Assembly (NCBI GenBank): GCA_003696795.1
Contig: RFFT01000001.1
Span: 1 to 37,735 of the forward strand
Direction of reading: 5' to 3'
Source: Zetaproteobacteria bacterium
GTDB lineage: Bacteria > Pseudomonadota > Zetaproteobacteria > Mariprofundales > Mariprofundaceae
DNA length: 37,735 bases
Made by a program: the position numbers and the translations under genes. The notes below the pieces were generated by a model. It was given only the letters and a program-made list of their open reading frames with translations. It was not told where the DNA came from and searched no databases. This document shows positions 35,239-37,735 of this stretch, piece by piece. How positions within the stretch are numbered: the stretch's first letter is position 1; the number at the start of each line of letters is the position of its first letter.

Positions 35239-35991
35239 ATGCGTGGATTTCTGCAGGGAATCGCAGCGTTTGTGCTCGGCTTGCGCGATTTGCTCATGCG
35301 GGCGGAGCTGCGGCGGGTTTTGTGGCGCATGCTGGGTGTGCTGTTTGCCGTGATGCTGCTCGTGTCGGTGGGCGCGTTCTGGCTGGCCGATGCGCTGATG
35401 GCCCAGTTTGTTCCGAGCGGAGATGCTTGGTACGTGCCCGTTCTCGAGTGGCTGGTGTGGCTTTTTTCCTTGCTTGCCTCAATTGTCGCCGGTGTGGTGT
35501 CGTACATGACCCTCGCGTCGGTGATTGCGGCGAGCTGGCTGGATGCGTTGTGCGCCCGGATCGATCGTGACACCGAGGCGCAGACGCCCTGGTGGCGGCA
35601 GACGATGAACAGCATGGCCAGCATCGCGATGCCGCTGCTGCATTTCCTTCCCTTTGCTGCGGTTTCCGCCGTGGCGTTGCTGATTCCGCTTGCCGGTTCG
35701 GTCATCGCCAGTGTGCTGTGGGGGTATGCGGGCGTGCGTTTGTTGGCCTTTGAGGTCATGGATGTGCCGGCCTCGCGGCGCGGTCTGCGCTGGCGGGAGC
35801 GTCGGCGGGAATGGCGCGCGCATCGAGCCTTCTATCTTGGGCTATGCGGCACGGCCTCGCTCGCACTGCTGCTGCCGGTCGTCAATTTGCTGGTTTTGCC
35901 CGCCTGTGTGGTGGGGCTGGCCCGGCATTGGTCGCTTATGGACGAATCAGCACCGTCTCGCCCACCCGCACCCGATCGAATAACTCCATGA
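35239..35991 (+). CDS. EI24 domain membrane protein (CysZ-like fold)
   Basis: This 250-residue protein is an integral membrane protein with hydrophobic segments near residues 34-56, 73-104, 130-160 and 200-225. It has the EI24 layout: FLQGIAAFVLGLRDLLMR at the start, a central MASIAMPLLHFLPFAAVSAVALLIPLAG, then WGYAGVRLLAFEVMDVP and a late LCGTASLALLLPVVNLLVLPACVVG. EI24 proteins include the sulphate-uptake protein CysZ, but many are uncharacterised and there are no sulphur genes here. Its last 56 bases overlap the converging L,D-transpeptidase gene. Confidence 0.8.
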   Translation: MRGFLQGIAAFVLGLRDLLMRAELRRVLWRMLGVLFAVMLLVSVGAFWLADALMAQFVPSGDAWYVPVLEWLVWLFSLLASIVAGVVSYMTLASVIAASWLDALCARIDRDTEAQTPWWRQTMNSMASIAMPLLHFLPFAAVSAVALLIPLAGSVIASVLWGYAGVRLLAFEVMDVPASRRGLRWRERRREWRAHRAFYLGLCGTASLALLLPVVNLLVLPACVVGLARHWSLMDESAPSRPPAPDRITP

Positions 35992-36397
35992 TGTCCCAAT
36001 TGCGCATGCGAATGCAGCCATGAGAGACGGGCTGGCCGATCAATGATTCTTCGTTGGTGCCATGGATATAGATGAAACGCGCGCGCGTATCGCAGGCGCC
36101 ACGCCGGTTGACGCCGGTCTGGCAACCTTCCAGCCAGAGAATGCGGCTGAGAATCCAGTCCCGGCTCACTCCATCGTCGAGATCATCGAACAATCCAATG
36201 GGCTGCCTTGCGCGAAATACTGTCCACGGTGGAAGGCCCGCGCCGATTTTGGCGTAAATGCGGTGTCTGCCGAGTGGGGTCATCAGGCTGTTTCGACGAT
36301 TGCCGGCACCTGCCCGCGCGGTGGACACGGGGTAGCATCGACGCACGCCGCGATAACGGTGGATCAGGCGCTGTTCGCTTACTGAAACCACGATCAT
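35936..36397 (-). CDS. L,D-transpeptidase (YkuD domain), no signal peptide seen
   Basis: The 153-residue protein is almost entirely a YkuD domain. The catalytic motif is HGTNEESLIGQPVSHGCIRM, with His112, His126 and the nucleophile Cys128. The opening IVVSVSEQRLIHRYRGVRRCYPVSTA is the typical first strand. YkuD enzymes make 3-3 cross-links or anchor proteins in peptidoglycan in the periplasm, yet no signal peptide or membrane anchor is visible and the domain begins at residue 2. Similar short forms exist in proteobacteria. The start overlaps the LuxR-type gene stop by 4 bases (ATGA), suggesting coupling. Confidence 0.9.
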   Translation of the reverse strand: MIVVSVSEQRLIHRYRGVRRCYPVSTARAGAGNRRNSLMTPLGRHRIYAKIGAGLPPWTVFRARQPIGLFDDLDDGVSRDWILSRILWLEGCQTGVNRRGACDTRARFIYIHGTNEESLIGQPVSHGCIRMRNWDIMELFDRVRVGETVLIRP

Positions 36398-37371
36398 TGG
36401 CTTTGGCCGCCACGGTTTTTGCGATACAGCTCGGTGAGCTGATGGCGATTATGGATGCCGAGCCTGCGGAAGATGTTGTAGAGGTGGTTGCTGACCGTTT
36501 TGGGCGATAGCGCCAGTCGATCAGCGATGAGCTTGTTGCTTTCGCCCGCGGCGACAAGACGCACGATGCGCTGCTGGGTGGGGGTGAGGCGGTCGAATTG
36601 ATCCGGCCTGCGCGCATGCACTTGCAGCAATTGTCCATGCGGTTTCGCCCAGAGCACCAATTGCGAAAAAAATTCCGGTGTCTCGCGGTTGAGCATGGCG
36701 CTGGCATCGAGCGGCAGGAACGGCCCTCTCCAGTCGGGCCACTGGCGACGCATCAAAGGCGCAAAGCCGGGTTCCGCCTCCATGACCAGGCTGCGCCGAT
36801 CGCAAATCGCGATGGCATGATGCATGGGCATGTCGCGCTTCTGCAGGCCGATGAACAGGTTCAGATTGCGCGCATCGACCAGCAAGGGCACCAGCATCTC
36901 CTGCAAGTGTCGATCCCGCGTACTGAAGTTATGCGCGGGATCGCGGCGATAGAGGGAGATGATCGAATACAATGAGATGGCTTCGTCGTAATGGCTGGTG
37001 GATTGCAGTTGCTCAAGCCCGTAGATGCGACAGTAGTCGCGATAGAATGCCGATTGCTCGAACTGTTCGCGGGTGACGATGTCGTAAATGTTCCAGGTGG
37101 GTTGCTTGCGTCTGGTGGCAATCAGGCGGGCGAGCAGAACGTCCTGCGGCTGAATATGCCGGTAATGCGCGATCATCGCGGTGGGCAGGTTGAACAGGTG
37201 CATGTCATGCGTATGCGGCACCTCGTCCTGCATCGTGCCGGTTGCCCATAATGCCGAATCGAAGGAAACCAATTCCCGTAGCCGTGCGAGGGCTTCATCC
37301 TGAAAGCGGGTGATGGGCGTGGTGCGTGCCAGACGCATCAAGTCCCGAGCCAGGGTGGAGATTGCATGCAT
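36394..37371 (-). CDS. LuxR-family transcriptional regulator
   Basis: The 325-residue protein has a C-terminal LuxR helix-turn-helix (about 262-318). It begins LTPTQQRIVRLVAAGESNK, continues with LIADRLALSPKTVSNHLYNI and ends FRRLGIHNRHQLTELY. The N-terminal 240 residues do not show a clear autoinducer-binding, receiver or PAS signature to me; no LuxI-type synthase is in the window. The ATG at 37371 has AAGGAG 8 bases upstream. Its promoter region contains a poly-C tract and a palindrome (separate entries). It is coupled to the L,D-transpeptidase gene and divergent from the tyrosine phosphatase gene. Confidence 0.9.
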   Translation of the reverse strand: MHAISTLARDLMRLARTTPITRFQDEALARLRELVSFDSALWATGTMQDEVPHTHDMHLFNLPTAMIAHYRHIQPQDVLLARLIATRRKQPTWNIYDIVTREQFEQSAFYRDYCRIYGLEQLQSTSHYDEAISLYSIISLYRRDPAHNFSTRDRHLQEMLVPLLVDARNLNLFIGLQKRDMPMHHAIAICDRRSLVMEAEPGFAPLMRRQWPDWRGPFLPLDASAMLNRETPEFFSQLVLWAKPHGQLLQVHARRPDQFDRLTPTQQRIVRLVAAGESNKLIADRLALSPKTVSNHLYNIFRRLGIHNRHQLTELYRKNRGGQSQ

Positions 37372-37386
37372 GTTTATCGCTCCTTG

Positions 37387-37397
37387 AACCGACGGTT
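37387..37397. promoter_or_regulatory. Palindrome near the predicted luxR transcription start
   Basis: AACCG-A-CGGTT is a perfect 5-bp inverted repeat that covers the start expected about 7 bases after the -10 at 37401-37406. A protein bound here could block initiation. It is short, so chance is possible. Confidence 0.3.
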
Positions 37398-37400
37398 TGG

Positions 37401-37429
37401 ATGGTATTGACGGGGGGGGGACATGTCAA
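37401..37429 (-). promoter_or_regulatory. Promoter of the LuxR-family gene
   Basis: On the minus strand TTGACA (37424-37429) is a perfect -35, followed after exactly 17 bases by TACCAT (37401-37406), a 4 of 6 match with the key first two and last bases. The predicted start is about 37394, giving a leader of about 23 bases with AAGGAG. The spacer contains nine consecutive C bases. Confidence 0.65.
37412..37420. repeat. Nine-base G/C homopolymer in the promoter spacer
   Basis: Nine G bases on the plus strand (C on the minus strand) form the longest homopolymer I found in the window. They lie wholly between the -35 and -10 of the luxR promoter. Tracts of this kind gain and lose bases by slipped-strand mispairing, which would change the spacer from its optimal 17. 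Confidence 0.8.
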
Positions 37430-37447
37430 TGAAAAGATGGGTAAAAT
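37418..37447 (+). promoter_or_regulatory. Candidate opposing promoter for the tyrosine phosphatase gene
   Basis: On the plus strand GGGACA (37418-37423) is followed after 18 bases by TAAAAT (37442-37447), a 5 of 6 match to the -10. It uses the end of the G tract as part of its -35 and the palindrome centre as its -10. It would give a leader of roughly 140 bases before the phosphatase ATG. Confidence 0.4.
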
Positions 37448-37454
37448 TACCCAT
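37437..37454. promoter_or_regulatory. 18-base palindrome, candidate regulator operator
   Basis: ATGGGTAA, two bases, TTACCCAT: perfect 8-bp arms. It lies 7 bases upstream of the luxR -35, centred about 51 bases before the predicted start, a place where an activator could act. It also covers the -10 of the opposing promoter, which it would block. The length resembles lux-box-type operators, but the sequence is not a canonical lux box. Confidence 0.55.
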
Positions 37455-37532: not shown

Positions 37533-37559
37533 ATTCGGGTGCGAAGGATGCACCCGAAT
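37533..37559 (+). promoter_or_regulatory. Hairpin in the phosphatase gene leader
   Basis: ATTCGGGTGC (37533-37542), a 7-base loop and GCACCCGAAT (37550-37559) form a perfect 10-bp stem. No T tract follows, so it is unlikely to be an intrinsic terminator. It ends 35 bases before the phosphatase ATG and could act in RNA or as a DNA operator. A weak TTGACG (37521-37526) lies just upstream. Confidence 0.45.
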
Positions 37560-37594: not shown

Positions 37595-37735
37595 ATGTTT
37601 GATTCCATTCTTGTCGTATGTGTCGGCAATATCTGTCGCAGCCCGATGGCCGAGGCCTTGCTCAAGGCGCGAGCGCCCGCAAAGGTGCGCGTTTCGTCGG
37701 CTGGCATCGGGGCGCTGGTGGGCAGCCCCGCCGAC
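37595..37735 (+). CDS. Low-molecular-weight protein tyrosine phosphatase, N-terminal part
   Basis: The first 47 codons run to the window edge without a stop. ILVVCVGNICRSPMAEALL contains the C-x5-R phosphatase loop (VCVGNICRS, nucleophile Cys9 and Arg15) of the LMW-PTP family, followed by RVSSAGIGALVG, the second conserved strand. The form resembles Wzb/Etp/AmsI, which dephosphorylate Wzc-type kinases in capsule and exopolysaccharide export and usually open such clusters. That downstream context is outside the window, so the pathway is inferred. Confidence 0.9.
   Translation, partial: MFDSILVVCVGNICRSPMAEALLKARAPAKVRVSSAGIGALVGSPAD

Follow-up and report, generated by a model that had tools for sequence, protein, structure and literature searches.

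A poly-C tract between the hexamers of a putative luxR promoter, and an apparent set of poly-C promoters in Zetaproteobacteria

Phase variation through the length of a promoter spacer has been described chiefly in pathogens adapted to a host. For porA, fetA and opc, homopolymers between the -10 and -35 elements are believed to affect how the sigma factor binds (PMC2791445), and in tp0126 of Treponema pallidum a homopolymer lies between the -35 and the -10, with transcription best at 17 nt (PMC7864442). Expression of opc differs between C11 and C12 (PMC3447861); its poly-C tract has been placed between the -10 and -35 (PMC2791445) and also over the -35 region, not strictly in the spacer (PMC7864442). 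An initial annotation of the DNA studied here had proposed that a poly-C tract ahead of a luxR-type gene is a possible phase-variable switch, with porA and opc as parallels. The porA parallel holds for a tract within the spacer, whereas that with opc is contested, given the placement over the -35.

The luxR promoter and its surroundings

The window, that is, the whole 37,735-nt stretch analyzed, is an entire contig (C34) of a 1.55-Mb MAG (107 contigs, 97.5% complete) from the zetaproteobacterial family to which Ghiorsea and other Mariprofundaceae belong. Its TldD shares 69-73% identity with TldD of three congeners, and the contig therefore belongs to the MAG. Direct reading of the minus strand gives a perfect TTGACA (37429-37424) followed by TACCAT (37406-37401), with nine consecutive C in the 17-base gap, exactly as first annotated; from 37429 to 37401 the strand reads TTGACA TGT CCCCCCCCC GTCAA TACCAT. 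The promoter and the genes behind it are as follows.

37424..37429, minus strand: -35 hexamer TTGACA, a perfect match
37407..37423, minus strand: 17-nt spacer, TGTCCCCCCCCCGTCAA, between TTGACA and TACCAT
37412..37420, minus strand: C9 homopolymer within the spacer, from direct reading and tract scans
37401..37406, minus strand: -10 hexamer TACCAT, 4/6 with the TAnnnT core present
37380..37385, minus strand: strong Shine-Dalgarno (SD) sequence of luxR, AAGGAG, with the ATG at 37371
36394..37371, minus strand: luxR-type regulator of 325 aa, with a GerE HTH at residues 261-314
35936..36397, minus strand: YkuD-type L,D-transpeptidase (ldt), its start overlapping the luxR stop as ATGA

The homopolymer thus sits wholly between recognizable -35 and -10 hexamers, as in the porA class, and the luxR ATG lies 30 nt 3' of TACCAT. 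A consensus promoter scan of the window ranks this site best (10/12 matches); the looser threshold of 9/12 yields 2 sites against 1.1 expected. Across the 37.7-kb window, whichever strand is read, this is the sole exact TTGACA followed at 16-18 nt by TAnnnT (at least 4/6). TACCAT also lies 3' of C10 and of C8 at two poly-C sites of relatives (L171 and L129, respectively).

The N-terminal 255 aa of the luxR product have no Pfam match. The protein carries neither signal peptide nor lipobox and so differs from the surface-exposed target that is usual, though not strictly defining, for the porA class. The initial annotation also described the L,D-transpeptidase as coupled to luxR. Because the luxR stop and ldt start overlap by 4 nt, the two genes are likely co-transcribed, whereas control of ldt by LuxR is only an assumption, as sister genome G001 keeps ldt without an adjacent luxR. 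In the tldD-cysZ-ldt block of that genome, an inorganic-pyrophosphatase-like gene (by protein reading) sits where luxR does in the window. No luxR ortholog was found in the genus, family or class (77 other class genomes), and this absence, together with the replacement in G001, makes luxR probably a local addition. A contig search with the LuxR protein returned no match. A plasmid origin was considered and rejected: matches share at most 30% identity over most of the protein and are other LuxR-type regulators. Distant relatives with 23-30% identity occur in 13/398 genomes of the phylum, and no long C/G runs lie upstream of them as judged from mechanically called starts, several of which look wrong. 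On the other side of luxR is a divergent gene (37595..37735, plus strand) that is cut off at the contig end and that we take, from its N-terminus, to encode a low-molecular-weight protein tyrosine phosphatase-like product (ptp).

Three further features lie in or near the promoter.

37374..37424, minus strand: 16-codon open frame, ATG TCC CCC CCC CGT ... TAA, from direct reading
37437..37454, no strand assigned: 18-bp dyad, ATGGGTAA-TT-TTACCCAT, 7 nt upstream of the -35
37533..37559, no strand assigned: 10-bp perfect inverted repeat, ATTCGGGTGC-7-GCACCCGAAT, in the luxR-ptp intergenic region

The open frame raises the reading that luxR is not driven from these hexamers and that a transcribed tract acts in the leader, through this frame or through pairing between C and the SD. 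The frame includes the C9 tract and stops 2 nt before the luxR ATG, so that slips of one base either way would alter the frame in which the two meet, and some relatives have C-runs facing GGGGG near the SD. Yet the frame lacks an SD and is probably not translated, a search of Rfam with the luxR region and related loci gave nothing except a tRNA, the -35 and -10 hexamers on either side of the tract are spaced as expected, and the distances to the ORFs are compatible with a short 5' UTR. We regard a leader mechanism as very improbable.

The dyad reads ATGGGTAATTTTACCCAT in full, with perfect 8-bp arms, and is a candidate operator, possibly an autoregulatory one. It bears on a second alternative, in which the tract sets the distance between a regulator and RNA polymerase, as with NadR at nadA, and hexamer spacing is secondary. 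The putative regulator sites would be the dyad, so close to the -35, or the ATTGAC-13-GTCAAT arms that flank the C9 tract on both sides, and NadR provides the precedent (PMC2791445). Against this, the dyad has no clear regulon, its genome holding one exact copy and two weaker ones elsewhere with 2-3 mismatches, and it was not seen in the printed upstream sequence of the poly-C relatives; we consider this alternative improbable. As a regulon-wide box the dyad was likewise rejected, one exact and two degenerate copies being not clearly above chance. The intergenic inverted repeat has no T-run.

The tract in its own genome

No other G/C run in the window is as long as C9; for runs of at least 9, C and G taken together, a second-order Markov model expects 0.11 and a first-order model 0.34. 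The 1.55-Mb host genome has 12 distinct C/G tracts of at least 8, four of them of at least 9, against ~4-5 of the latter when the second-order composition of the window is extrapolated to the genome. The host genome therefore shows no excess of long C/G tracts of the kind that marks a contingency-locus genome, and the length of C9 alone is unremarkable because the count of tracts of at least 9 matches composition. Placement is another matter: in the printed flanks, a -35/-10 pair surrounds only 1 of the 12 tracts, the luxR C9. It is position, rather than length, that makes this tract stand out.

These counts are central to the simplest rival, an ordinary fixed promoter whose spacer came to hold C9 by chance, neutrally and with no relevant switching. 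Besides the compositional match, the other three tracts of at least 9 lie inside long open frames, which is not contingency-like; the intergenic 8-mer tracts of the host have no -35/-10 pair in their printed flanks; neither the host genome nor three congeners hold a second poly-C promoter of the luxR kind; and C9 falls at the short end of tract lengths. What the fixed promoter leaves unaccounted for is that the one tract of the 12 that occupies a -35/-10 spacer is that of luxR. The evidence from relatives, given below, also bears on it, and overall we judge it unlikely.

Poly-C promoters among relatives

The search was extended to related genomes. In 77 of these, TTGACA followed by C8 within 9 nt occurs at 17 distinct sites, with far fewer in the reversed control; inspection revealed intergenic promoters ahead of outer-membrane and lipoprotein genes. 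In all 74 family genomes, mostly MAGs and including Ghiorsea and other Mariprofundaceae, TTGACN with C8 gives 49 distinct sites (L112-L118, L128-L155, L164-L177), hand-counted from overlapping rows, against 7 reversed, for which counts that overlapped in a single genome were scored as one site. The corresponding poly-G search, TTGACN with G8, gives 15 sites against 14 reversed. Both the excess over the reversed control (two-sided binomial p = 7e-9) and that of 49 over 15 (p = 2e-5) have optimistic p values, as the sites come from related genomes and are non-independent. Poly-G versions with TTGAC and G8-G11 (L161, L162, L163) precede short genes for exported or lipoprotein products.

An SD and ORF follow 20-75 nt downstream in 30/49 sites, with gene starts called by simple rules. 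The luxR site is included at an offset of +40, having the features that define the set, namely TTGAC, C8 or longer within 10 nt, and an SD and ORF at 20-75 nt. When the N-termini were inspected by eye for signal peptides and lipoboxes, with no trained predictor, 25 of the 30 downstream ORFs were assigned to lipoproteins or signal-peptide proteins; 2 are membrane proteins, and cytosolic products make up the other 3, two thioredoxins and the LuxR of the window, which is thus the one regulator case in the set. An automatic hydrophobicity count was discarded as proof of export because it is weak: 14/23 window genes pass too. Pfam, run on some of the ORFs, identifies OMP_b-brl/OmpA-like barrels in L117 and L164, and most of the others scanned have no family. 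Two thioredoxin-like genes (L147, L149) have C10 upstream, each tract lying near a divergent gene start.

A TAnnnT element (at least 4/6) at a spacer of 14-19 nt is present in 16/30 sites, against a mean of 2.7 and a maximum of 8 in 500 shuffles. The luxR site is one of the 16 and the sole one at exactly 17 nt.

A core, C8-11 (A/G)GCAAcTAtgaTGCC, recurs at many family sites, and the -10 lies within it. When 84,980 species were scanned for C8-(N)GCAANTANNNTGCC, 18 of the 38 hits were named Zetaproteobacteria, Mariprofundaceae or Ghiorsea, a figure to be read with the fact that the class-wide core was derived partly from loci that the scan then recovered; in another genome set, Zetaproteobacteria account for 78/97,973 genomes. 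GCAA-N6-TGCC lies directly 3' of poly-C in L133, L142, L166, L170-L172 and L178-L214. It is absent around the -10 of the luxR site, which reads GTCAATACCATCCA. Because the luxR site matches the others in architecture yet lacks the GCAA/TGCC core, its origin may be convergent, outside the main poly-C set. Reversed, the core becomes GGCA-N6-TTGC, a sigma-54 -24/-12 match. An opposite-strand sigma-54 promoter was rejected: the conserved SD gene is on the TTGAC side, divergent genes are variable or absent, and the window lacks the core. At the family sites that have it, the core may be an overlapping promoter, an operator or a chance match.

The core with poly-C also appears in other phyla, in Fibrobacteres bog_1184 (L191, L211) and in Tannerella and relatives (L179, L187, L193), and in one Fibrobacteres genome the combination precedes lipoprotein-like genes in two places. 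Outside the class, one genome has a C25 run (L121, G057:C222) that lies inside long open frames and may be an assembly artefact.

Tract length differs between closely similar copies. In G074, two 2.4-kb copies (L216 on contig C24, L220 on contig C10) are 98.2% identical and carry an OmpA-like gene; their promoters have C9 and C5, with spacers of 16 and 12, and are otherwise identical over ~130 bp before the gene. The pair may have arisen by duplication or may come from two strains that share a bin; with either origin, the tract alone changed in the promoter region. Two Ghiorsea species have C9 and C8 between identical tract flanks (L208, L213), and further differences are C9/C8 in L133/L142, C8/C11 in L132/L167 and, with an additional spacer change, C8/C9 in L144/L169. 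Single-base differences may be homopolymer assembly error, which is not plausible for C9 versus C5. In an OMP ortholog (L218, G011:C12), six A rather than seven follow the ATG (ATGAAAAAATAA), putting the usual start out of frame, and this A-run is a possible second slip site.

The family-wide excess and the C9/C5 and C9/C8 differences argue that relatives use spacers of this kind and that these are unstable there, which speaks against a neutral, fixed promoter. The 49-site set of TTGAC with poly-C is probably of greater interest than the luxR site, and the larger result is that Zetaproteobacteria carry a set of poly-C promoters that is apparently undescribed.

A candidate spacer-length switch and its known counterparts

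By analogy, a spacer-length switch of the porA and tp0126 type is our best explanation for the luxR tract, held with somewhat better than even confidence. A sigma-70-type promoter with a slippage-prone C9 spacer would drive the luxR-ldt operon; replication slippage would add or remove one or more C and move the -35/-10 distance away from 17 nt; and the altered spacing would change transcription, rendering luxR and the overlapping ldt phase-variable. Because 17 nt is the spacing at which tp0126 transcription is strongest, C9 would be the strong state, with C8 and C10 weaker by the same rule. LuxR would then switch other genes. Use of the hexamers, slippage of the tract, high expression at 17 nt and a response of other genes to LuxR are all inferred.

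The initial proposal of a phase-variable switch thus finds backing in the spacer architecture and in family promoters with varying tracts, but none in the tract content of the host. Several points weigh against a switch: luxR has no ortholog in the class, its product is a cytosolic regulator while the family set serves almost entirely exported proteins, the host has neither a tract excess nor a second such promoter, and the GCAA...TGCC bases are missing around the -10. More tentatively, and with less than even confidence, we suggest that Zetaproteobacteria have genome-wide phase-variable poly-C surface promoters and that, in the species studied here, a LuxR-type regulator that its relatives lack has been recruited to this mode of control, in which case slippage would flip a regulon that includes a cell-wall enzyme.

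The mechanism is known; the Zetaproteobacteria lineage, and a LuxR-type target under a spacer tract there, appear unreported. A full-text search of one open-access collection for Zetaproteobacteria and phase variation gave one incidental co-mention, and further searches gave nothing on the subject among the papers listed, though absence there is not proof. If true, random surface switching would extend beyond hosts to free-living iron-oxidizing Zetaproteobacteria, where it might counter phages or make mats and biofilms heterogeneous. With a regulator that is itself phase-variable, one slip would become a multi-gene state.

Among described systems, porA and fetA of Neisseria meningitidis likewise have a G/C homopolymer in a sigma-70-type spacer that is strong at ~17 nt (PMC2791445, PMC7864442). 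They encode pathogen surface proteins and their switching is demonstrated, whereas here the target is a LuxR-type regulator of an environmental bacterium and switching is proposed by analogy. The opc gene of N. meningitidis resembles the locus in that its coding strand carries poly-C close to the -35. In tp0126, which encodes an OmpW homolog, the homopolymer is again between the hexamers, but the target is an outer-membrane protein and the effect was demonstrated experimentally. The surface genes of Mariprofundaceae (L117, L133, L142, L171, L208) share with luxR the TTGAC or a similar element, C8-C11, TAnnnT, and an SD and ORF 29-69 nt downstream. Unlike luxR, they have exported products, many have GCAA...TGCC, and their spacers are of 15, 16, 18 or 19 nt.
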